Below are positions 15,072 to 45,515 of a stretch of 45,515 bases of DNA, piece by piece. This DNA is from a virus. Under the pieces are notes generated by a model that had not been told where the DNA came from, made no database searches, and saw only the letters and a program-made list of their open reading frames with translations. The position numbers and the translations under genes are program-made. The stretch spans positions 1 to 45,515 of IMG/VR virus record IMGVR_UViG_3300042465_002270; one strand, 5' to 3'. The stretch's first letter is position 1, and each line of letters starts with the position of its first letter.

Positions 15072-15344
15072 ATGACTATACAAGACTGGGCTGCTTTAAT
15101 TTTAAGCGTATTAACCATAGTCGGCATCATGGCTGGCGGAATCAAATTTCTCGTAAAACATTATCTAAGTGAACTTAAACCCAATTCAGGCTCATCTATG
15201 AAAGACCAAATTTCAAGGCTAGAAACTCGCATTAATGAAGCAGATGTTAGTCGTAAGCAGATGAAAGAAGATCATAAGGTTATGAAAGAAAAGCTAGACC
15301 ATATGTATGATATTCTTTTAGAGTATATATCTAAATCTAAGTAG
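15072..15344 (+). CDS. Holin-like membrane protein
   Basis: A 90-aa protein with one membrane helix (about residues 8-30, ALILSVLTIVGIMAGGIKFL) and a charged coiled-coil tail (about 42-85). Size and layout match phage holins and small membrane-anchored coiled-coil proteins of actinobacteriophages. No lysin is adjacent; the lysozyme-like gene is at 20087-20632. The call rests on topology alone. Confidence 0.55.
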   Translation: MTIQDWAALILSVLTIVGIMAGGIKFLVKHYLSELKPNSGSSMKDQISRLETRINEADVSRKQMKEDHKVMKEKLDHMYDILLEYISKSK

Positions 15345-17558: not shown

Positions 17559-17930
17559 ATGGCATTTCCAGGAACTTATAATTTTAATTACTATCGTGGC
17601 GACACATCAGAATTTGTTATCCAACCAAAAAATTCTAATGGAGAAGCATTTGACCTAACTGGCTATACTGCAAGTTTTACAATTGCTAGTGCAAGAGGGC
17701 CTATTGGTGCAGCCCCAGCGTTTTCTTACACTGCATCCGCAGTAGTAAATGATGTAACAAACATTATAACTTGTAAAATTATTCCGTCACTAGGAAGAAC
17801 TCTCCTAGCTGGAACACATGTATATGATGTTCAAATAACTAATACAACACCTGAACCAGATGTTATTTTTACACTTTTAACAGGAACAATTACAGTAACA
17901 AATGATATTACGGGTGCTGGTAGTGCCTGA
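17559..17930 (+). CDS. Beta-sandwich adaptor-like protein (LtfC/BppU-like)
   Basis: A 123-aa all-beta protein; YYRGDTSEFVIQPKNSNGE followed by AFDLTGYTASFTI matches the start of BppU-N or LtfC-like domains (GDT...F...G...DLTGYT). Probably an adaptor that joins the next fibre genes to the tail. It has a strong AGGAGGA ribosome site and overlaps the next gene. Confidence 0.65.
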   Translation: MAFPGTYNFNYYRGDTSEFVIQPKNSNGEAFDLTGYTASFTIASARGPIGAAPAFSYTASAVVNDVTNIITCKIIPSLGRTLLAGTHVYDVQITNTTPEPDVIFTLLTGTITVTNDITGAGSA

Positions 17931-18554: not shown

Positions 18555-19328
18555 ATGGCAAGTGAAAGCATAGGTACTTTAGTACCAACAAGAATTCCAA
18601 GTCTTGGAGACGCAGCTGATATTCAGGTTGCTCTTAGAACATATCATTATGGGTCTGAAAGTTTTAATACAGCTGAAACAAATACAGCAAACTTAGTTAG
18701 CCCATCAATTGCATATACACTTAATAGCCTAGACGTACGAATTGATGCTATTGAAGGAGGAGGATCTCTTTCAGCCTCAAGCTTTAACGCAAAAGGAGAT
18801 TTGCTTTCAGCTTCTGCAAATGACGTTTTATCTGTAGTCACTGTTGGAGCAAATGGAACAATCTTAACTGCAGACAGCGCAACTGCTTCTGGATTATCAT
18901 GGTCTACTCCTGCTGCAGCAACTACTATAACTACAACATCCTCTACAACAGATGCAAAAATTGCCTGGGATACTACAAACAAGCAAATTCAAGTTGGTAA
19001 TGGAACAAGTCTTTTAAATTTTCAACCATTTAATGTAAATACAACTGCTAAAACTGGAGCATACACATTTGTTTTATCTGATGCTAGCACTCTTGTTCAA
19101 ATGAATGGTGCTTATGCCTTTACCGTTCCACTTAACGCAACTGTTGCTTATCCTATTGGAACTCAAATACACTTAATTGCACTTACAACAGGAGTTACAG
19201 TTGCTTTCACTGTTGGAATTACTTCATATGCAACCCCAGGAGCAAAAATACGTGCAGCTGGATCAATGGCAACATTAATAAAGCTAAATACAGATACTTG
19301 GGTACTTGCAGGAGACTTGATTGCATAA
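18555..19328 (+). CDS. Tail fibre protein
   Basis: A 257-aa fibre. The N-terminal third holds a short helical coil (about 50-75), then a Thr/Ala/Ser-rich beta shaft. The C-terminal domain (FVLSDASTLVQMN... to NTDTWVLAGDL, about 165-257) is a repeat-independent tip shared with the 690-aa fibre at 24749-26821 (NTWVVYGDL at its end). In both cases the next gene encodes an FN3-FFPP protein. Confidence 0.75.
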   Translation: MASESIGTLVPTRIPSLGDAADIQVALRTYHYGSESFNTAETNTANLVSPSIAYTLNSLDVRIDAIEGGGSLSASSFNAKGDLLSASANDVLSVVTVGANGTILTADSATASGLSWSTPAAATTITTTSSTTDAKIAWDTTNKQIQVGNGTSLLNFQPFNVNTTAKTGAYTFVLSDASTLVQMNGAYAFTVPLNATVAYPIGTQIHLIALTTGVTVAFTVGITSYATPGAKIRAAGSMATLIKLNTDTWVLAGDLIA

Positions 19329-20011
19329 TGCCAATTCCAGGAGTAACGGGTTCTTCAGATAATCGCCAGCCAGGAACTCCAACTATTGGAGCTGCAACTG
19401 CTGGCAATGCTAGTGTATCCGTAGCTTTTACTGCTCCAGCAAATACTGGAAAACCTAATACTTCTTTACTTTATACTGCAACAACAACTCCAAATTCAAT
19501 TACAGGAACTAGTTCTACATCTCCAATTACTATTTCTGGTTTAGCTAATGGTACTTCTTATACCGCAGTTGTTAAACTAAATAATACCGTTCAAGATTCT
19601 CTAAGTTCTACTGCTAGTAATTCATTTACTCCAGTAGCTCCAGGACCATTCTTCCCGCCATTCTTCCCGCCATTCTTCCCGCCATTCTTCCCGCCATTCT
19701 TCCCACCATTCTTCCCGTTCTTCCCACCATACTTCCCACCTTCTCCAACAATTACTAATCTTTCAATTGTTGAAGCATACAATGGAGGATTCTTAAGTTG
19801 GGATTCTACTCTTCAGGCTTCATACATGATTACAACTTCACCTAGCTCAAATCTTAATGGAGCAACTGGAAATACTGCTACATCAAGAACAATGACTGGT
19901 GGAACTCAGTTAACACAATATACCGTTACAGTAACTGTTTACACAGGATCAAGCCAGACTGGAGTTAGTGCATCTGCTCAAATAACCTTTACAACGCCAG
20001 CTGCCCCCTAA
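19328..20011 (+). CDS. FN3 protein with FFPP repeats
   Basis: A 227-aa protein starting at a TAATG overlap with the fibre gene. An FN3-like domain (about 15-105) is followed by a Phe/Pro tract (107-138) of eight FFPP-type units (the last YFPP) and a second FN3-like domain (about 140-227). FN3 domains on phage tails usually bind surface carbohydrate. The FFPP tract is unusual: every unit pairs two aromatic residues with two prolines, so it could form a rigid polyproline rod with aromatic faces. With the phage prolyl-hydroxylase cluster, the prolines are candidate substrates (inference). Confidence 0.8.
   Translation: MPIPGVTGSSDNRQPGTPTIGAATAGNASVSVAFTAPANTGKPNTSLLYTATTTPNSITGTSSTSPITISGLANGTSYTAVVKLNNTVQDSLSSTASNSFTPVAPGPFFPPFFPPFFPPFFPPFFPPFFPFFPPYFPPSPTITNLSIVEAYNGGFLSWDSTLQASYMITTSPSSNLNGATGNTATSRTMTGGTQLTQYTVTVTVYTGSSQTGVSASAQITFTTPAAP
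19646..19741 (+). repeat. In-frame 12-bp tandem repeat encoding FFPP
   Basis: Repeats of CCATTCTTCCCG (last base G or A) nearly identical in DNA, interrupted once by a 9-bp unit. The tract is GC-rich compared with its surroundings and uses the same codons each time, a sign of recent expansion by slippage or recombination. Confidence 0.9.
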
Positions 20012-26835: not shown

Positions 26836-27795
26836 ATGGCTAAGAAGACGGGTAAACGTTCATCTGCATCAAATGACTTTTTAGAGCCATTAGCGCCAAC
26901 AAGCGTAACTGCAACAAACGTAGGAACAGGCAGAGCGTTTAACAATGGCGCAGCCACAGTTACATTTTCTTTGCCTGCGCTATCCCCTGCTGCTACATCA
27001 TTTACTGTAACCTCGTCTCCTGGCGGATATACTGGAACTGGGTCATCTTCTCCAATTACAGTCACAGGTTTGCAATCTAACACGGCCTACACGTTTACTG
27101 CAACAGCGACTAATGCTGCTGGAACATCTGCAGCCTCATCTGCTTCAAGTTCAATTACAGCTACAACAGTTCCTGCAACCATGTCTGCCCCAACACCTAC
27201 TGCTGGTGTTAATCAAAACTCTATTGCCTTCTCAGCCCCCGCAACTGGTGGTAGCGCAATTACTGGGTTTACTGTAACAGGATCTGACGGTACTTCTGGA
27301 ACAGGTGCTACTTCTCCAATTCTTATTAATGATACCGCTGGAACAGCTCAAACTTATACAGTCACAGCAACTAATGCTAATGGTACAAGCGTTGCTTCTG
27401 CTGCGTCTGGATCAGTTACTACATTATCTCCATTCTTTCCTCCTTTCTTTCCCCCATTCTTTCCGTTCTTCCCACCTTTCTTCCCACCGTTTTTTCCTTT
27501 CTTCCCGTTCTTCCCACCGTTTTTCCCACCATTCTTCCCGTTCTTCCCACCATTCTTCCCTCCATTCTTCCCACCTTTCTTCCCGTTCTTCCCACCTTTC
27601 TTCCCGTTCTTCCCACCGTTCTTCCCACCATTCTTCCCACCATTCTTCCCAAGCTTCTCAAGTTGTTCAACAGCTGGTAACTATTGTGGAGCCGACGCAG
27701 GTGGTGCCCCATGCTGTGGAGGAGCAGGCTCATGTGATTTCTTTTCTTGTTTTGGAATAACAGGTTATGCTTGCGGTGGCAATAATTTCTGTTAA
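26836..27795 (+). CDS. FN3 protein with long FFPP repeat and Cys-rich tip
   Basis: A 319-aa protein: basic N-terminus (MAKKTGKRSS), two FN3-like domains (about 18-112 and 113-198), a Phe/Pro tract at 199-272 with about 20 FFP or FFPP units, and a C-terminal Cys/Gly-rich tip (273-319) with eight cysteines, enough for four disulfides. It follows the 690-aa fibre, as the 19328 protein follows the 257-aa fibre. It may be a fibre tip, the FN3 domains binding glycans, the FFPP tract acting as a stiff spacer and the Cys-rich end as a disulfide-stabilised knob. Proline hydroxylation by the oxygenases encoded just downstream is a hypothesis. Confidence 0.8.
   Translation: MAKKTGKRSSASNDFLEPLAPTSVTATNVGTGRAFNNGAATVTFSLPALSPAATSFTVTSSPGGYTGTGSSSPITVTGLQSNTAYTFTATATNAAGTSAASSASSSITATTVPATMSAPTPTAGVNQNSIAFSAPATGGSAITGFTVTGSDGTSGTGATSPILINDTAGTAQTYTVTATNANGTSVASAASGSVTTLSPFFPPFFPPFFPFFPPFFPPFFPFFPFFPPFFPPFFPFFPPFFPPFFPPFFPFFPPFFPFFPPFFPPFFPPFFPSFSSCSTAGNYCGADAGGAPCCGGAGSCDFFSCFGITGYACGGNNFC
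27430..27651 (+). repeat. In-frame tandem repeat encoding about 20 FFP/FFPP units
   Basis: 222 bp of 9- and 12-bp units built on TTC TTC CC(A/G) CC(A/G/T). Units at the 5' end carry more silent changes (TTT, CCT, CCC) while the 3' end is nearly homogeneous, which suggests recent expansion at the 3' side. Confidence 0.9.
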
Positions 27796-28523: not shown

Positions 28524-29234
28524 ATGGATATTTATGATGAAAATGAAAATCATTGGTTTACAAAAGACAGGTCTGAAACAGTTTCAGGTAGAGTTGAAAG
28601 ATTAATGCCTCAAATCAATATTTCTATTAGTAATCCAGGATTAGGACTAAACATTTATCATAATGTTTTTTCTAAAGATGATTCAGAAAGATATATTAAT
28701 ACGCTTGAGCACAATCTTTCAGGAGATAAAAAATATAAGTGGTCAGAAGCTAAAGTTACAAACTCTGATGCCCCAATTAAAAAAGCAAGAGATTGTGTAG
28801 ACTTTAAATATAAGCAAGAAAATCTTGGGCCAAGAGATGAATCTAATCAAGACTTAATTGATCTTCATGAAGAGATTTACCAAAAGCTAAAAATGTGTGT
28901 AGACGACTATGCTCATTATTGGGGAATTAATGTTACATATTACGAAGCATTTAACTTTGTAAAGTATGAGGGTGAAGGAACTCACTTTAATATTCATGCT
29001 GATCATGGCCCTGCTTATAATTGTACAGTCTCTGCTGTTATCTATATTAATGATGATTATGAAGGCGGAGAGATTAAGTTTCCAAGATTAGATAATTTTG
29101 TTCATACTCCAAAAGTTGGAGATATAGCTATATTCCCTTCAAACTATATTTATGAACATGCTTCTTTGCCAATGAAAACAGGAACAAAATATTGTGTTGT
29201 TATTATGACAGACATAAACGAGCTGAGCCATTAA
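28524..29234 (+). CDS. 2OG-Fe(II) oxygenase 1 (prolyl-4-hydroxylase type)
   Basis: A 236-aa oxygenase with the complete double-stranded beta-helix active site: H158-A-D160 (HADHG), distal H212 (YEHASLP) and the 2OG-binding K222 (TGTKYCVV). YINDDYEGGEIKFPRL lies between, as in P4H-type enzymes. Family members hydroxylate prolyl or other residues, using Fe(II), 2-oxoglutarate and O2. It is closest to the oxygenase at 30015 (both share YNCTVS, NDDYEGGE and FPSN). Starts the oxygenase cluster; overlaps the next gene at TAATG. Confidence 0.9.
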   Translation: MDIYDENENHWFTKDRSETVSGRVERLMPQINISISNPGLGLNIYHNVFSKDDSERYINTLEHNLSGDKKYKWSEAKVTNSDAPIKKARDCVDFKYKQENLGPRDESNQDLIDLHEEIYQKLKMCVDDYAHYWGINVTYYEAFNFVKYEGEGTHFNIHADHGPAYNCTVSAVIYINDDYEGGEIKFPRLDNFVHTPKVGDIAIFPSNYIYEHASLPMKTGTKYCVVIMTDINELSH

Positions 29235-30004
29235 TGAATAAGTTGGCAATCTTTAGATCTTTTAGGCCTTGGCTAAATAAGGATAGTGTTTCTGTTCCAG
29301 CACCAACACAGAATGTTATTCCTCAATGGTATAAGGATGCAGACAGATTTGCAAAAAATCCAATGAACAATGAATATTATAATGCACCAAAAGAAACTTG
29401 CCCTTTTCCAAAAGACGGTACAGTAGATGACTATGGAAAAATTCCTACATGGAAAGCATGTCCTGCAATCATGGATGCATTTTCAACTGGATATGTTTTT
29501 AAAACTCCTTGCGATTTAATATTTTCTAAAAACGTACAAGGAGTTATTGGTGTAAAGATTGAAGATAGTAGATATCAAGATTTCTGTACTCAAAGACCAC
29601 CGATGCCACAGTTTGAGCATCCAAAAGGATTCTATGAGCACCATTTTGCTTGGTCTTCTGATTGGGGGCTAGAGTTACCAGAAGGATATAGTGCTTTGTT
29701 TATGACACCAATGAATAGATTTGATCTGCCATTTTTAAACACAACAGGAATTGTTGACTCAGATAAGGTTCATTTGCTTGGAAGCTTTCCATTCTTTATT
29801 GCAGAAGGTTGGGAAGGAACAATTCTAGCAGGCACTCCATACCTACAAGTCTTACCATTTAAAAGAGAAAACTGGAAAAGTGAAGTAGAGATATTAGGAC
29901 AGGCTGAGATTTATGATAAAATGTTTAACAACATGAAGTTTTATAGACAGCCTGATGGCGGAGTATATAAAAATAAAGTTTGGTCAAGAAGAGAATACAA
30001 ATAA
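29234..30004 (+). CDS. Unknown protein within oxygenase cluster
   Basis: A 256-aa soluble protein starting at a TAATG overlap with oxygenase 1. It is rich in aromatic residues and Pro (VIPQWYKDADRFAK, PFLNTTGIVDSD, AGTPYLQVLPFKRENW), which suggests a jelly-roll or cupin-like beta fold. No HxD iron site is visible. I recall proteins of this kind next to oxygenases in cyanophage and other aquatic phage genomes, without known function. It may be a partner, an acceptor-handling protein or another modifying enzyme. Confidence 0.7.
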   Translation: MNKLAIFRSFRPWLNKDSVSVPAPTQNVIPQWYKDADRFAKNPMNNEYYNAPKETCPFPKDGTVDDYGKIPTWKACPAIMDAFSTGYVFKTPCDLIFSKNVQGVIGVKIEDSRYQDFCTQRPPMPQFEHPKGFYEHHFAWSSDWGLELPEGYSALFMTPMNRFDLPFLNTTGIVDSDKVHLLGSFPFFIAEGWEGTILAGTPYLQVLPFKRENWKSEVEILGQAEIYDKMFNNMKFYRQPDGGVYKNKVWSRREYK

Positions 30005-30014
30005 GGAGAATAGA

Positions 30015-30671
30015 ATGGAAACATGGACAGAAAAAATAGACCTTGGTAATGGAATCTTTTGTTACAAGGGTGTAATTAAAAAAGAAATTGATGTAATAAA
30101 AAGACTTGAAGATAATCTTAAGCCAGAAGGAGATACCACTGGGTACAGCTGGCAACCTGCGTATGTAGGATACAAACAACTAATGCCAGACTATAGAGAT
30201 TGTAATGATTTTAAGTTTAAGAAAACAGATATTGAAAATGATAAAAGTCAAGTCAGTCTAAACCTTCAATCACTTTGGCAAGATCTTTATGATGTAAAAT
30301 TACCAGCAGTAGAAGATTATTGCAGAATGTACAATATTCATAATTTGAAATATTGGGAAGCTTTTAATTTTATTAAATATGGTCAAGGTCAACACTTTAT
30401 GGAACATCACGATCATGGGTTTTCTTATAATTGTACTGTTTCTTTAGTTTCATATGTTAATGATGACTATGAGGGCGGAGAACTTTTCTTTAGACTACAG
30501 AACCTAAAAGTCAAAGCAGAGGCTGGGGATTTGTTTATTTTCCCATCAAACTTTATGTATCCACATCAAGCCATGCCAGTAACTTCTGGAACTAAATATT
30601 CTATTGTAACAATGCTTGATTACAGTAAAAAGTTTCACACTCCAGAAATGTATAGTGCAGAGGCAGACTAA
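30015..30671 (+). CDS. 2OG-Fe(II) oxygenase 2 (prolyl-4-hydroxylase type)
   Basis: A 218-aa oxygenase. The ATG after AAGGAG was chosen over an in-frame start inside the upstream gene. Iron ligands H131-H-D133 (EHHDHG) and H184 (YPHQAMP), 2OG anchor K194 (SGTKYSIV). Shares NCTVSLVSYVNDDYEGGELF with family members. Overlaps the next gene at TAATG. Confidence 0.9.
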   Translation: METWTEKIDLGNGIFCYKGVIKKEIDVIKRLEDNLKPEGDTTGYSWQPAYVGYKQLMPDYRDCNDFKFKKTDIENDKSQVSLNLQSLWQDLYDVKLPAVEDYCRMYNIHNLKYWEAFNFIKYGQGQHFMEHHDHGFSYNCTVSLVSYVNDDYEGGELFFRLQNLKVKAEAGDLFIFPSNFMYPHQAMPVTSGTKYSIVTMLDYSKKFHTPEMYSAEAD

Positions 30672-31387
30672 TGTTTAATATCTCAGTTGAAAAAACACAG
30701 GGGGCTTTGTTTGATATTCAGCCCATGTCAATTAAAAGAGACTGGATGGATGTAACATCAGAAGGCCATGCTTATAGATGTTTTCCAGTAACCCAATCAA
30801 ACGTAATTGGCTGGAGTCTTTCTTGTGTAGAAGATATTGAGTTTATTTGGGATGGAGTTAATGATCAAACTCCAGATCGTGTTGAAATATTCAGCCCATC
30901 GGGAGCATATTCTGGAAGAGGTCAATCTTCTATAAGTTTAAATACGGGTTTAGTTTTTAGAACAGACAAAGATGTAAGTATTTTTACTATTAATCCAGTA
31001 AATTATTTTAGCAATGAGTTTGAAACAATGTCATCATTAATGAGCACATCTTTTTATGACAATCCTCTGCCTTTAGCTATTAAAGCAAAAGTAGCAAACA
31101 AAAGAGTGGTTATCAAAGCTGGAACCCCAGTTGCTACAATAATTCCTATATCTTTGTCAAATTTAAACGGTACAAATATTGAAATTGTTAAATACCAAGA
31201 CAATGATAGAACAAGATTAGAAGCCAATATGTCCTATGGAAATGCTGCACAAGAAATAAATAAAACTGGGAAATGGACAGACTGGTATAGAGATGCGGTA
31301 AATGAAAACAAAGAATCTCAAGGTTCACATGAGGTAAAAACATTAAAACTAAGCGTAACAGACAATACGAAGGGTGATATAATATAA
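30671..31387 (+). CDS. Unknown protein, possibly DUF6065-like
   Basis: A 238-aa protein. AYRCFPVTQSNVIGWSLSC (about 34-52) followed by FIWDG and a late AGTPVATIIPI segment recalls the DUF6065 family of phage proteins, which sit near oxygenases and have unknown function; the family name is tentative. The C-terminal part is charged and probably flexible. It shares the AGTPxxxxxP element with the protein at 29234, so the two may be distant relatives. Confidence 0.65.
   Translation: MFNISVEKTQGALFDIQPMSIKRDWMDVTSEGHAYRCFPVTQSNVIGWSLSCVEDIEFIWDGVNDQTPDRVEIFSPSGAYSGRGQSSISLNTGLVFRTDKDVSIFTINPVNYFSNEFETMSSLMSTSFYDNPLPLAIKAKVANKRVVIKAGTPVATIIPISLSNLNGTNIEIVKYQDNDRTRLEANMSYGNAAQEINKTGKWTDWYRDAVNENKESQGSHEVKTLKLSVTDNTKGDII
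31378..31383 (+). promoter_or_regulatory. Extended -10 TGA-TATAAT, leaderless
   Basis: Predicted start 31390, exactly the ATG of oxygenase 3. The box overlaps the last codons of the upstream gene. Confidence 0.55.
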
Positions 31388-31389
31388 AT

Positions 31390-32070
31390 ATGGAACAAAA
31401 TAAAGACTCATATACAGTAGTTAAAAGAACACCGTCTATAACTCCATCTGGGTGGTTTGGGGATAGCAAAGACATGATTGTTGAGCTAGAAAACTTTATG
31501 ACGCAGGAAGAGATAGAGTTTTTAGAAAAAGCTGCCAAATCTTTAACAATTTGGGATGTAACCGAAAGCCATGTAAATGAAAATGGAACTGTTACCTATG
31601 ATTCAGATTATTGGAAGGATAGAGTTGCAACTCAGCCAACCTTAGACAAGAATGATCCTAAAATATCACCAATAGTTGCTGGCCTATTTCAAAGATTAAA
31701 ACCAATTGTAGAAGAGTTTTATAAAGTAGAAGTTCACCCAACTGGAACAACCATTGTTAAGTGGCTTCCTGGACAATTTCAAAAACCTCATGCAGATAAA
31801 GAATTACATGAAGGCCCAGATGCTGGAACTCCAAACGATTTTCCCAACTATGATCTTTCTAGTTTGTTTTATTTAAATGACGACTACGAAGGTGGAGAAC
31901 TATACTTCCCACTACAAGGTGTGCAGTTTAAACCTAAAAAAGGTGCTGCTTACTTTTTCCCAGGGGATAAAAATTATATTCATGGAGTTACTGAGATTAA
32001 GAGTGGCATAAGATTTACATGTCCATTTTTTTGGGAGATTAAAAAACATACGGGGGAGAGACAACCATGA
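31390..32070 (+). CDS. 2OG-Fe(II) oxygenase 3 (prolyl-4-hydroxylase type)
   Basis: A 226-aa oxygenase with H134-A-D136 (KPHADKEL), H198 (YIHGVTEI) and R208 (SGIRFTCPF) in the 2OG position, where members 1 and 2 have Lys. LFYLNDDYEGGELYFPLQG is the family core. No ribosome site but a -10 box placed for leaderless expression. It overlaps oxygenase 4 by 4 bases (ATGA). Confidence 0.9.
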   Translation: MEQNKDSYTVVKRTPSITPSGWFGDSKDMIVELENFMTQEEIEFLEKAAKSLTIWDVTESHVNENGTVTYDSDYWKDRVATQPTLDKNDPKISPIVAGLFQRLKPIVEEFYKVEVHPTGTTIVKWLPGQFQKPHADKELHEGPDAGTPNDFPNYDLSSLFYLNDDYEGGELYFPLQGVQFKPKKGAAYFFPGDKNYIHGVTEIKSGIRFTCPFFWEIKKHTGERQP

Positions 32071-32933
32071 CAGAGCCAGCGCTTAACCCAATAGAAATAT
32101 ATCCACAAATATTTGTTTATAAAAATATGTTTAAGGATATAACAAAGACGCACTCCGAGTTAAAAAATTCTTCAGGTCACGAAGACGAACTGCTAAATGA
32201 GTGGACAAAATGGTCTGACTTTGGAGAGTATTTAAACCCTACATTTAAAGATCATCCACACGGATTTAGCACAGAGTATTTGCAGCAGATAGAAACTAAA
32301 ACAGATAAACAGGAAGTTCAAAAACTTGCACTTCTAGAATTATTTAATAACTTTTATGCAGTAACAAAAGACTACGCTATTAAAAATAATATAGATCTTG
32401 ATCAAGATAAAGAGATAACAAATCATTATGGAGAACAGGTAAAAGAGTGGAACAGGTCTGGACCATCTATAGCAAGATATAGAACAGACATTGTAGACCC
32501 AATAGCCATGACATATCATTCTGACTATATACGCCAACCAATTGTTAGCCCAGGGTACAAGTTTGTAATAACTGCTCTAGTGTATTTTAATGATGACTAT
32601 GATGGTGGAGAGATTGACTTTATTGTTGATGGAGAAGCCTATAAGTATAAGCCAGAAGCAGGAGACTTTTTAGTATTTCCATCAGGTCATCCAGACATAC
32701 TAACAAAGAACGGCTCAGTCTATATTCACGGAGTTATGCCAGCAAAAAAGACAAGTAAATACCTATCCAGAATGTATTGGATGAAGTATTCTCTTGGAGA
32801 TGATGAATGGTTTGAAAAAGAGAAAGAATTTGGAAAAGATGTTTGGGAATCAATGCAGCCAGATATAATGCAAAAGTTTAGAGATGAACATCCCAATAAA
32901 ATTAATGCAGACAAAGAAAGAAGGATAAAATGA
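32067..32933 (+). CDS. 2OG-Fe(II) oxygenase 4
   Basis: A 288-aa oxygenase, the longest of the set. H151-S-D153 (YHSDYIR), H221 (YIHGVMP) and K231 (TSKYLSRMYW) form the active site; LVYFNDDYDGGEIDF is the core strand. About 130 N-terminal and 50 C-terminal residues, helical and charged, are additions not shared with the shorter members and may bind a specific substrate. Coupled by 4-base overlaps on both sides. Confidence 0.9.
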   Translation: MTEPALNPIEIYPQIFVYKNMFKDITKTHSELKNSSGHEDELLNEWTKWSDFGEYLNPTFKDHPHGFSTEYLQQIETKTDKQEVQKLALLELFNNFYAVTKDYAIKNNIDLDQDKEITNHYGEQVKEWNRSGPSIARYRTDIVDPIAMTYHSDYIRQPIVSPGYKFVITALVYFNDDYDGGEIDFIVDGEAYKYKPEAGDFLVFPSGHPDILTKNGSVYIHGVMPAKKTSKYLSRMYWMKYSLGDDEWFEKEKEFGKDVWESMQPDIMQKFRDEHPNKINADKERRIK

Positions 32934-33685
32934 ATCTAAACAATAAAAAAAGAATTACAAAGGACATAGTTATTTATGAAAACTTTGTTACTGATGAAGA
33001 GTGCCAAAAAATGGTTCAAGCACTTGATGCTCAAGCAGAGGGTGGAAAGTTATCATGGATGCCTATCTCATTTTATGAGTCATACTCTTCTGTACTTCCA
33101 CAAGACAATGACCAAGAAGTTCTTGACGTTGGACTATCTCCAACTATTTTTTCAGATATTGAAAAGATGATGCCAGAAGCAATTGCTTCCGTACACGACT
33201 TAGATCCAAAGGTAATATCAAAAATTGGATACCATACACAAAAGTGGGAGCCAGGAGCATACGCAAGAATTCACTCTGACAATACAGATGAGCATGGAAA
33301 ATCTGGGGCATTTACGAGAAGTAGGTATGCAGGCTTTTTATACCTTAATGACGACTTTGAGGGAGGACTGCTTAAGTTTCCAGCACAAGACGTAGAGATT
33401 CAACCAAAGGTTGGAATGCTTGCCGTATTTGACGGAGGATTTAACAACATGCACGAAGTATCCCTTATTACAAGTGGAGTAAGATATACCATCGGATCTT
33501 TCTGGGATGACAGAGAAGAATCAGATTATCCGCAAGAACTAAGAGATGCCTGGGCTGTAGAAATGAAAGAGACTAGAGCCAATCAAGAAATTGAAAGAGC
33601 AGAGTGGCAAGAGCTTTTAAAGCAAGGTTGGAAGTTGGATGCAAATGGAAATAAGTACAAGGTAGAAGATATTCTAAATGATTGA
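32930..33685 (+). CDS. 2OG-Fe(II) oxygenase 5
   Basis: A 251-aa oxygenase: H115-S-D117 (IHSDNTDEHGK), H175 (NMHEVSL) and R185 (SGVRYTIGSFW). FLYLNDDFEGGLLKFPAQD is the core. The C-terminal 50 residues form a charged helix. Overlaps the next gene by 8 bases. Confidence 0.9.
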   Translation: MNLNNKKRITKDIVIYENFVTDEECQKMVQALDAQAEGGKLSWMPISFYESYSSVLPQDNDQEVLDVGLSPTIFSDIEKMMPEAIASVHDLDPKVISKIGYHTQKWEPGAYARIHSDNTDEHGKSGAFTRSRYAGFLYLNDDFEGGLLKFPAQDVEIQPKVGMLAVFDGGFNNMHEVSLITSGVRYTIGSFWDDREESDYPQELRDAWAVEMKETRANQEIERAEWQELLKQGWKLDANGNKYKVEDILND

Positions 33686-34337
33686 GTCCTTAAAAAAACA
33701 GTTGACAGATGCTGGCTATGTAGTTGAAGATATTACCTCAAAACTATTTTCTGTTGAAAACTTTTTATCACAAGATCAAATAGATACTTTTTGGGATATT
33801 ATAAATAGTACATCTCAAGAAGACTGGGAAGTAGAATATCACGCAAACTTAAAAAACTTTTGCATGCAAAAATTTGGTAGAGATGATGTAGATAATCTGG
33901 TTGCTGAAGGTAAGTTTGAAGTTACTCAAAATTGGAAAGATAAAAATTTTAATATATTACACCATGAGATATACAGACCATTATATGATGGTTTAAACTC
34001 AATGGTAGTAAAATCTGATCCAGAGTTAATTTTAAGTGGTTTTGCAACAATTCAAAGAATGCAAGCGGGGGTAGAATTAAAATCTCACACAGATCAAAGA
34101 ACAGATCCATCTATAAAATATGCTACAATTGTATATATTAATGATGACTATGTAGATGGTGAGTTATTTTTCCCAAACCTTGATATCCAGTTAAGGCCTA
34201 AACCAGGAACTATGTTATTTTTTCCAGGCGATGAAAAGTATGAACATGGAGTCAAGCATGTAGGAGATGGACCAGTAAGATATGTTCTTGTTGGATTCAT
34301 TAAAGAAAAAGATCACTATCAAAAGAATAGGTACTAG
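33678..34337 (+). CDS. 2OG-Fe(II) oxygenase 6
   Basis: A 219-aa oxygenase: H137-T-D139 (SHTDQRTD), H190 (YEHGVKH) and R201 (GPVRYVLVGF). IVYINDDYVDGELFFPNLD is the core, with VDGE in place of the usual EGGE. N-terminal helical region as in other members. Followed 10 bases later by oxygenase 7. Confidence 0.9.
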   Translation: MIESLKKQLTDAGYVVEDITSKLFSVENFLSQDQIDTFWDIINSTSQEDWEVEYHANLKNFCMQKFGRDDVDNLVAEGKFEVTQNWKDKNFNILHHEIYRPLYDGLNSMVVKSDPELILSGFATIQRMQAGVELKSHTDQRTDPSIKYATIVYINDDYVDGELFFPNLDIQLRPKPGTMLFFPGDEKYEHGVKHVGDGPVRYVLVGFIKEKDHYQKNRY

Positions 34338-34347
34338 GAGGCACCAA

Positions 34348-34977
34348 ATGGATAGAGAAATACTTGAAGAAAAGGTTTACTATTACACAAATGTAATTGA
34401 AGACCCAAAAAGACTTGTTGAAGCAATTGAGAATGACAATCAAGATCCTTGGGGCGAATGGATGGCGTGTAGTGGACAAGAGTATGTCTATGGAACAGAT
34501 AAAAGTATTTCCCAGGCAGACCCATCAGATGAAAAGAATACTTATATTTATTCCACACTACAAAAGGCTTTTGACGATGTAGCAAGAGACTATGCAGCAG
34601 CCCAAGGTATTACAGAAGAGCCTAAACTATTTCCAATGTATCCAATTAAAAAATATCAAGCTGGTACATTTATGGGAGCACACTTTGATCAACAAGAGGG
34701 AGACGAAAGACTAAAAGTTTCTTTTGTTATGTACCTAAATGATGATTATGAAGGTGGGGAAATATCTTTTACTATTGCTTCTCCAGGAGGAATATTAACA
34801 GAGGCAAGACCTCCAGCAGATTTTGCAGAAGCCGAAAAAGGATTAAACTATACATTTGCTATAAAGCCAAAAGCAGGAAGCATCATTGTATTCCCACCAT
34901 CACCTCCATATCACCATACAGCACACCTAGTTAAGAGTGGCTTTAAGATTATGGTTCCACAACATTGGATTCATTAA
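34348..34977 (+). CDS. 2OG-Fe(II) oxygenase 7
   Basis: A 209-aa oxygenase. The ATG after AGGAGG was chosen; an in-frame frame upstream lies inside the previous gene. H112-F-D114 (AHFDQQEGD), a YHHTAH segment in which H190 best fits the distal ligand, and K200 (SGFKIMVPQHW). It has an insert of about 28 residues (GGILTEARPPADFAE...) between the core strands. It ends inside the start region of the dehydrogenase gene. Confidence 0.9.
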   Translation: MDREILEEKVYYYTNVIEDPKRLVEAIENDNQDPWGEWMACSGQEYVYGTDKSISQADPSDEKNTYIYSTLQKAFDDVARDYAAAQGITEEPKLFPMYPIKKYQAGTFMGAHFDQQEGDERLKVSFVMYLNDDYEGGEISFTIASPGGILTEARPPADFAEAEKGLNYTFAIKPKAGSIIVFPPSPPYHHTAHLVKSGFKIMVPQHWIH

Positions 34978-43611: not shown

Positions 43612-43635
43612 TTGAGAAAACTCATAAATGTTTGG

Positions 43636-43641
43636 TATAAT
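43636..43641 (+). promoter_or_regulatory. Extended -10 TGG-TATAAT, near leaderless
   Basis: Predicted start 43648, three bases before the ATG of the protease-scaffold gene at 43651. Confidence 0.6.
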
Positions 43642-43650
43642 AGATAAGCT

Positions 43651-44961
43651 ATGAATATAAATAAAGCTTCCTGGGTTACCGACGGAGACAACGTTCGTCT
43701 ATCAATGCCTTTTGGTAAGGTAGATCAAGAGCGAAGACTTGTTTCAGGTTTTGCCTCTCTAGACAATGTTGACAAACAAATGGACATTGTAACTACCGAA
43801 GCTAGTATGAGTGCTTTTGCAAAGTTTCGTGGAAACATTAGAGAAATGCACCAACCATCTGCTGTTGGCAAGATGATCTCATTTAAAGAAGAAAAATATT
43901 TTGATCCAGAATCAAAGAAGTTCTATAAGGGAATATACGTTTCTACCTATATTTCTAAGGGTGCCCAAGATGCTTGGGAAAAAGTTCTTGATGGCACATA
44001 CACTGGTTTTTCAATCGGGGGACGAATGAACAAGTGGGATGATGCATATGATGATACAATGGAAAAGCAAATTAGAATTATCAAGGACTATGACCTCATT
44101 GAGCTATCTCTTGTTGATAGTCCAGCAAACCAATTTGCTAGCATTATGTCAGTTGAGAAGGTTGATGGTGTCGATATGATTAAAGCAGATAACACTGTTT
44201 TAGAAAATGTATTCTATGACAAAGAGTCTGGATTAGTTATTGTTTCTGAAGAAGAGACACAAGTAAGTCCTGCAACTGGACAAGAAATGAAGAACATTGG
44301 TTTTGTTGAAAAAGATGATTTAGAAAAAGCAAATATGATAAAGTTCTTAGTTGATAGTGCTAAAGGCATTAGTACAATTAAGATTACTAAGGAGGTAAAT
44401 CCAATGACAGAAGCAACAGAAGTAGCAGTCGAATCTGCAGTTGAAGAAGTTGAGGTTACTCCAGAGGCACAGCCAGCAGTTGTTCAAGAAACACCTGCAG
44501 TAGTTGAGGAAGCACCAGCAGCTGAAAAAGCTCTTGCTGTAGAATCATCTGATGGTAGTGCAGAGTCTTCAGTTGCACCTGCAGCTGAGACTGTAGAGAA
44601 TACTGCAGACAAGGCAGATAGCCTTGATGCAAATGCAACAGCATCTAATGAAGAAATTGCTAAAGCAGTTTCAGACATTAAGGATTCTCTAACTAATGCC
44701 TTTGGCGATCTCGCTTCAACTGTAAAATCTTTACATGAGCAGATTATGACACTAAGTAAGTCTCTTGAATCCGTAACTAGTGAGGTTAAGGAAGTTAAGG
44801 GAACATTTGATGAGTTTGGCAAGCGAGTGGATGACGTAGTAGCAGACACAGCTTTCCGCAAGTCTGGCGATCTAGGCGAGATCGTACAGTTCGAACCACT
44901 TAAGGTTCAAAAATCCCTATGGGGCGGTCGTTTCCTCACATCAACCGACCTATTCAACTAA
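43651..44961 (+). CDS. Prohead protease fused to scaffold domain
   Basis: A 436-aa head maturation protein. The N-terminal part (about 15-170) matches the XkdF/S78-like prohead protease group: VSGFASLDNVDKQMDIV, H67 in REMHQPSAVG, S121 in YTGFSIGGRM as likely catalytic residues, and DLIELSLVDSPANQ. The C-terminal part (252-436) is a Glu/Ala-rich disordered stretch followed by a long coiled coil (about 335-395) and ends LWGGRFLTSTDLFN, as in scaffold proteins. A strong internal ribosome site precedes Met252, so a separate scaffold is probably also made. Confidence 0.88.
   Translation: MNINKASWVTDGDNVRLSMPFGKVDQERRLVSGFASLDNVDKQMDIVTTEASMSAFAKFRGNIREMHQPSAVGKMISFKEEKYFDPESKKFYKGIYVSTYISKGAQDAWEKVLDGTYTGFSIGGRMNKWDDAYDDTMEKQIRIIKDYDLIELSLVDSPANQFASIMSVEKVDGVDMIKADNTVLENVFYDKESGLVIVSEEETQVSPATGQEMKNIGFVEKDDLEKANMIKFLVDSAKGISTIKITKEVNPMTEATEVAVESAVEEVEVTPEAQPAVVQETPAVVEEAPAAEKALAVESSDGSAESSVAPAAETVENTADKADSLDANATASNEEIAKAVSDIKDSLTNAFGDLASTVKSLHEQIMTLSKSLESVTSEVKEVKGTFDEFGKRVDDVVADTAFRKSGDLGEIVQFEPLKVQKSLWGGRFLTSTDLFN
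44404..44961 (+). CDS. Nested scaffold protein (internal start)
   Basis: In-frame internal start at Met252 of the protease-scaffold gene. AAGGAGGT at 44389-44396 lies 7 bases before ATG 44404, the best ribosome site in the area, although it is inside a coding sequence. The product would be 185 aa: an acidic Ala/Glu/Val-rich N-terminus, a coiled coil and the conserved C-terminal tip. This parallels the internally started scaffold (Nu3) of lambda. An excess of free scaffold over protease is expected for capsid assembly. Confidence 0.75.
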   Translation: MTEATEVAVESAVEEVEVTPEAQPAVVQETPAVVEEAPAAEKALAVESSDGSAESSVAPAAETVENTADKADSLDANATASNEEIAKAVSDIKDSLTNAFGDLASTVKSLHEQIMTLSKSLESVTSEVKEVKGTFDEFGKRVDDVVADTAFRKSGDLGEIVQFEPLKVQKSLWGGRFLTSTDLFN

Positions 44962-44989
44962 GATATAAAATCACTAGGAGGTGAACAAT

Positions 44990-45515
44990 ATGTCGGAACA
45001 AAATATAGAAAAGAACTACCCAGGATCTGGTGGCAGCGGAGCAGAGATTAACTCTCAAGGCGCAACAGTATCTGGTGGTATTGGTGGTGCAACTGCCCGT
45101 GATGCAAATGGTAACGTAGATCCAGCTACATCACTCGGTAACACAGCAACAGCTAACTTCGGTGTCACAACTGGACCTAACGCTGTTAATCCAACTGGAA
45201 CATCAGGTGGTATTTTAGCACCAGAGCAAGCTCGTCGCTTCATCGACTACGTGTGGGATGGAACAGTTCTCGCCAAAGACGGTCGTAAAGTTACAATGCG
45301 AGCAAACACAATGGAAATCGAAAAGGTTAACGTTGGAGAGCGTGTAATCCGTGCTGCTGCTCAAGGTAGCCCAAACTACACAAACGCTGGCGCAACATTC
45401 TCAAAGGTAGAACTAACAACCAAAAAGATTCGTCTTGACTGGGAAGTTTCTACAGAATCACTAGAAGACAATATTGAAGGCGGTGCTCTTGAAGATCACC
45501 TAGTTCGTCTTATGA
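44990..45515 (+). CDS. Major capsid protein (N-terminal part, cut by window end)
   Basis: The first 175 codons of the major capsid protein, with a strong AGGAGGTGAA ribosome site; the gene continues past the window. The N-terminal 65 residues are Gly/Asn/Thr-rich and probably flexible. ILAPEQARRFIDYVWDGTVL (about 75-94) and LTTKKIRLDWEVSTESLEDN (about 143-162) are typical of the HK97-fold capsid proteins with N-arm and E-loop. Its position after the protease-scaffold gene supports the call. Confidence 0.85.
   Translation, partial: MSEQNIEKNYPGSGGSGAEINSQGATVSGGIGGATARDANGNVDPATSLGNTATANFGVTTGPNAVNPTGTSGGILAPEQARRFIDYVWDGTVLAKDGRKVTMRANTMEIEKVNVGERVIRAAAQGSPNYTNAGATFSKVELTTKKIRLDWEVSTESLEDNIEGGALEDHLVRLM

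Follow-up and report, generated by a model that had tools for sequence, protein, structure and literature searches.

The window analysed here is the whole 45,515-nucleotide stretch of IMG/VR record IMGVR_UViG_3300042465_002270 (positions 1-45,515), whose source is described as a freshwater phage. It ends within a major capsid protein gene, which is preceded by a gene encoding a prohead protease joined in one reading frame to a scaffold-like C-terminal part (Table 1). A Shine-Dalgarno (SD) sequence and an ATG inside that gene could give a second, nested product. In the fold model of the long protein (mean pLDDT 61, mostly 70-90 across the protease domain), the protease is followed by a beta module and helix up to residue 237, disorder to approximately residue 323, and a helix at residues 324-405.

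Table 1. Features of the protease-scaffold locus, in window coordinates
Feature	Position	Strand	Basis or remarks
Promoter match TTGAGA-18-TATAAT	43612..43641	+	11/12 positions, TG before -10; TSS expected about 43648
Full-length prohead protease-scaffold gene, 436 aa	43651..44961	+	SD-less start, in-frame TAA 43645-43647 directly upstream
Protease domain, residues 1-165	43651..44145	+	T4 gp21 / herpesvirus-protease fold; H67 and S121 invariant
Small beta module and helix C-terminal to protease, residues 184-237	44200..44361	+	Fold prediction, alignment
Predicted RNA hairpin, two stacked helices	44345..44383	+	Freshwater clade only; ends 5 nt before SD
Internal Shine-Dalgarno AAGGAGGT	44389..44396	+	Sequence, aSD pairing, conservation
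Internal start ATG, codon 252	44404..44406	+	ATG or GTG in all relatives
Nested product, predicted scaffold, 185 aa, pI 4.2	44404..44961	+	Acidic and disordered at the N-terminal end, with a long helix
Long predicted helix, residues 324-405, likely coiled coil	44620..44865	+	Fold prediction
Major capsid protein gene, SD AGGAGGT, ATG 44990, cut by window end	44976..45515	+	

We found that the N-terminal part of the protein has the profile matches of the S78/XkdF-type prohead proteases. It matched PF14550 (Peptidase_S78_2) at 29.8 bits (cut-off 24) and PF04586 (Peptidase_S78) at 28.1 bits (cut-off 21), and residues 1-433 matched phrog_9427 with an E value of 2e-109. The lambda C protease belongs to the ClpP/S49 type. 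Pfam matches with E values of up to 1 included no S49 family, and the ClpP/S49 domain of the lambda C family proper was accordingly not found. Searching with the long model in Foldseek alone yielded no good match. A second look with VIA-align matched the predicted fold to T4 gp21 (5jbl_B; Z 12.8, rmsd 3.1, 132 aligned) and to the herpesvirus proteases of VZV (Z 7.3) and HCMV (Z 6.1), although the herpesvirus scores would be borderline if they stood alone. The putative catalytic residues H67 and S121 are invariant in 34 aligned sequences. In the Streptomyces-phage relatives, the beta module and helix (residues 184-237) are Cys-rich. The first-pass annotation had placed the internal start exactly where the protease domain ends. 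The start does lie after the folded part of the protein, but the protease fold itself spans only residues ~7-165, so that placement is approximate.

The full-length gene had been described as having a nearly leaderless start, and this was borne out. No SD precedes the ATG at 43651, which lies 9 nt after TATAAT. The in-frame TAA makes 43651 the sole possible upstream start for the long form. Of the promoter matches in the region TTGAGA-18-TATAAT is the best, and a transcript made from it would carry a leader of about 0-3 nt. TATAAT lies 9-10 nt before the ATG in 63 of 100 distinct upstream regions from relatives, with other close spacings in most of the others, and -10-like sequences stand directly before the start in Streptomyces and Rhodococcus phages and in a second freshwater group. 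Judged by these alignments, the SD-less full-length start next to a predicted promoter is conserved among relatives. Elsewhere in the window, the genes at 15072, 16309, 20776, 21974 and 31390 begin 6-9 nt after TATAAT with no SD between. A leaderless-type start therefore seems to be a habit of this phage.

The ribosome site claimed inside the gene was present as described. AAGGAGGT is followed by a spacer of 7 nt (44397-44403) and an ATG in frame with the ORF at 43651-44961. This sequence occurs once in the whole window. Its predicted pairing with the 16S tail was -12.5 kcal/mol, compared to -14.5 kcal/mol for the capsid gene, making it the second strongest among the starts examined. The window holds six matches to AGGAGG-N4-10-ATG, a number reached in none of 100 shuffles (maximum five). 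The other matches are mostly gene starts, at 17559, 20632 (minus strand), 34348 and 44990 (the capsid gene); one is antisense within a gene. The AGGAGG before the ATG at 34348 points to codon 23 as the true start of the ORF listed from 34282. A frameshift at the internal SD was rejected: both alternative frames run into a stop, after 2 and 17 codons, and no slippery heptamer was seen. When codons of the protease-scaffold gene were shuffled synonymously, an equally strong in-frame site arose in 160 of 1000 shuffles (16%), so that the site in this single gene is no better than chance. Predicted folds compared with synonymous shuffles gave no consistent signal for accessibility of the SD and start, which were not unusually open. 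Since these single-gene statistics are not significant, the case for the site rests on its conservation.

To judge conservation we used 209 genes from freshwater, Streptomyces, Rhodococcus and Alicyclobacillus phages, grouped into 45 clusters at 80% amino acid identity. The strongest in-frame site was at the protease-scaffold junction in all 45 clusters, with ATG as the start codon in 42 and GTG in 3. The GGAGG core is read in phase 2 in 24 clusters (K-E-V and similar) and in phase 0 in 20 (E-G-G); one cluster carries AAGGGGG at the SD position. The Streptomyces (Stanwilliamsviridae) and Rhodococcus (Weaselvirus) phage proteins are 32-43% identical to this one, and their best internal site is again at the junction, as is that of Alicyclobacillus phage MMB025. 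At one start position some Streptomyces phages have ATG and others GTG. A contig binned with a cyanobacterium led to a second aquatic group, in which the site comes after an insertion, at about codon 288-307. More distant S78 homologues (Chloroflexi, Acidobacteria and other MAGs) had no clear comparable site at the junction.

Closer relatives gave the same picture at the level of single codons. All of the nearest IMG/VR relatives shown to span the site retain both AGGAGG and ATG. Each of 130 distinct freshwater genes has ATG as codon 252, and 129 of them have AAG as codon 247. The codon for E248 is GAG in 130/130, with 0 codon changes on the tree; other conserved Glu columns show 4-19 changes, and GAG makes up 26% of Glu codons. 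Conserved codons have about 17 synonymous changes each in the protease but 1-3 at the junction. Synonymous change is likewise very low in the last 35 codons (44850-44961), before the capsid gene.

The SD is kept while its codon phase and the encoded peptide differ, which argues for selection on the RNA and cannot be explained by protein constraint. On this comparison of relatives, selection maintains the internal SD and start codon as RNA elements, and it is very likely that the nested start is real. The earlier proposal of an internal ribosome site yielding a 3'-nested, scaffold-like product is thus upheld across all clusters, in two codon phases, and by the unchanging E248 codon.

We consider it highly probable that one gene gives two proteins, a leaderless-started protease-scaffold and an SD-started scaffold of 185 aa, in a nested protease/scaffold arrangement. 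The promoter directly upstream would give a leaderless or nearly leaderless mRNA from which the 436-aa protein is made, and the internal SD would guide ribosomes to the ATG at 44404, yielding the C-terminal 185 aa alone. The short product would act as an internal scaffold that helps the capsid protein form a procapsid. A minority of full-length copies would carry the protease into the procapsid, presumably by co-assembly through the scaffold tail that they share with the many scaffold copies, and the protease would then cut the scaffold away.

A predicted hairpin lies just upstream of the SD, with helices pairing 44345-44350 with 44378-44383 and 44355-44361 with 44365-44371. In 15 freshwater genes it was more stable than synonymous resamples (z from about -1.7 to -4.2), and each phage record searched had a single strong copy. 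For the most part, nothing comparable was seen in Streptomyces, Rhodococcus and Alicyclobacillus phages. In the covariation analysis, most observed changes preserve the pairing and 98% of cells pair; there was no double-sided change and shuffles did equally well, so the hairpin is only suggestive as an RNA structure. A weak Rfam match to SAM-II was below threshold and was treated as chance. The hairpin may leave the SD accessible or lie at a processed end.

This hairpin bears on whether the scaffold is read from a transcript of its own, made from an internal promoter or by processing at the hairpin, with use of the same SD, as for herpesvirus UL26.5. A promoter match (TTGATA-16-TACAAT) does lie at 44351-44378, and the hairpin, 5 nt ahead of the SD, might serve in processing or protect a 5' end. 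However, TACAAT is not conserved among relatives (TACATC, TACTTC, GACAAT), and the hairpin is absent from most other groups. We regard such a transcript as unlikely, and it would supplement the internal start rather than replace it.

The nested product is most likely the scaffold, judging from its position, charge and predicted helix. It lies between the portal and protease genes on one side and the capsid gene on the other. Its pI is 4.2, and it is predicted to contain a disordered acidic stretch and an 82-residue helix. It ends in a conserved C-terminal motif, KSLWGGRFL. No sequence match was found between the nested product and a proven scaffold protein. The capsid protein is about 375-390 aa in relatives, with a Gly/Ala/Asn-rich N-terminus in which no helical delta domain is apparent, and a separate scaffold is therefore expected. 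Most phages encode their scaffold separately (PMC3185693). We infer that the nested product is made in excess over the full-length protein. In 79 of 93 loci the scaffold half is nearer to the capsid gene in codon usage (0.593 vs 0.554), a small effect among related loci. This is as expected for a more-translated stretch and lends slight support.

Function is assigned here from position, charge and helix content, and the nested product could be real and yet be something else, such as a regulator of the protease, an adaptor for the portal or a decoy substrate. We think this improbable, given its place between the portal/protease and capsid genes, a capsid protein without a visible delta domain, and the lack of a second scaffold candidate between those genes.

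It is considerably less probable still that the SD-like sequence acts by pausing elongating ribosomes so that the protease domain can fold, with no internal initiation. The SD does stand directly after the folded part, with a predicted hairpin ahead of it in the freshwater clade. Pausing needs no start codon, however, and an ATG or GTG is found at SD spacing in 45/45 clusters, across insertions and both codon phases, with ATG and GTG interchanging at one site. Chance, or protein-level constraint alone, would fit the frequency of equal sites in synonymous shuffles, but we give it almost no weight, since the two codon phases, the start codon that is always kept and an E248 without codon change already contradict it.

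The nested two-product arrangement is of a known kind. In lambda, the protease-scaffold gene C contains the nested scaffold Nu3 (Shaw and Murialdo 1980, as related in PMC8508860), and protease and scaffold share one gene in both lambda and P2 (PMC8508860). The first-pass annotation had drawn the comparison with C/Nu3, and the gene arrangement fits: the predicted scaffold is encoded in frame by the 3' part of the protease gene, the capsid gene is downstream, and an in-frame internal start with an apparent SD of its own, the mark of a nested protease/scaffold gene, is found at the junction. The comparison does not extend to the protease. What is new here, and unlike lambda C/Nu3, is an S78/T4 gp21/herpes-type protease, a leaderless long start, and a hairpin before the SD in one clade. 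P2 gpO is alike in giving protease and scaffold from one gene; it is made as one product and is not known to have a nested start.

Since the protease is S78/T4 gp21/herpes-like, UL26/UL26.5 is a closer analogue at the protein level than C/Nu3. In HSV-1, UL26.5 starts inside UL26, and scaffold derived from the full-length protein contributes only about 10% of all scaffold (PMC12474303). The phage gene is similar in having an N-terminal protease of the same fold family, a predicted C-terminal scaffold with a conserved C-terminal tail, and a probable shorter C-terminal product from a start inside the longer gene. Unlike UL26.5, the short form here would be read from an internal ribosome site, and no conserved internal promoter was seen. 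A fuller reading is that this gene is the phage counterpart of UL26/UL26.5 with a homologous protease fold, that the leaderless and strong-SD starts set the ratio of protease to scaffold, and that the freshwater hairpin tunes or processes the short message. We offer this reading tentatively, as one with somewhat less than an even chance of being right.

Direct homologues of this gene are annotated in Stanwilliamsviridae and Weaselvirus (Beuffert, Faust, Coruscant, Peregrin) as 'capsid maturation protease'. They have the same gene order and the same internal SD and start, with the SD in a different codon phase from this gene. The public records examined list one protease CDS with no nested start annotated. 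A literature search, which took in few subscription papers, found no report of a nested start in these phages. The nested start would supply a scaffold gene for a large group of phages in which only a 'capsid maturation protease' is annotated, and would correct those annotations. It would also tie the nested scaffold arrangement to a herpes-type protease on the phage side. The gene would be a natural pair of leaderless and SD-led starts in one frame, and the ratio of their outputs should be important for capsid assembly.

Two other features of the window were noted. A run of about seven ORFs at 28524-34977 resembles related 2OG-Fe(II) oxygenases (HxD and GGE-like motifs, by eye only). In the tail region, the ORFs at 19298-20011 and 26836-27795 contain long repeats of the PFFPPFFPP type.
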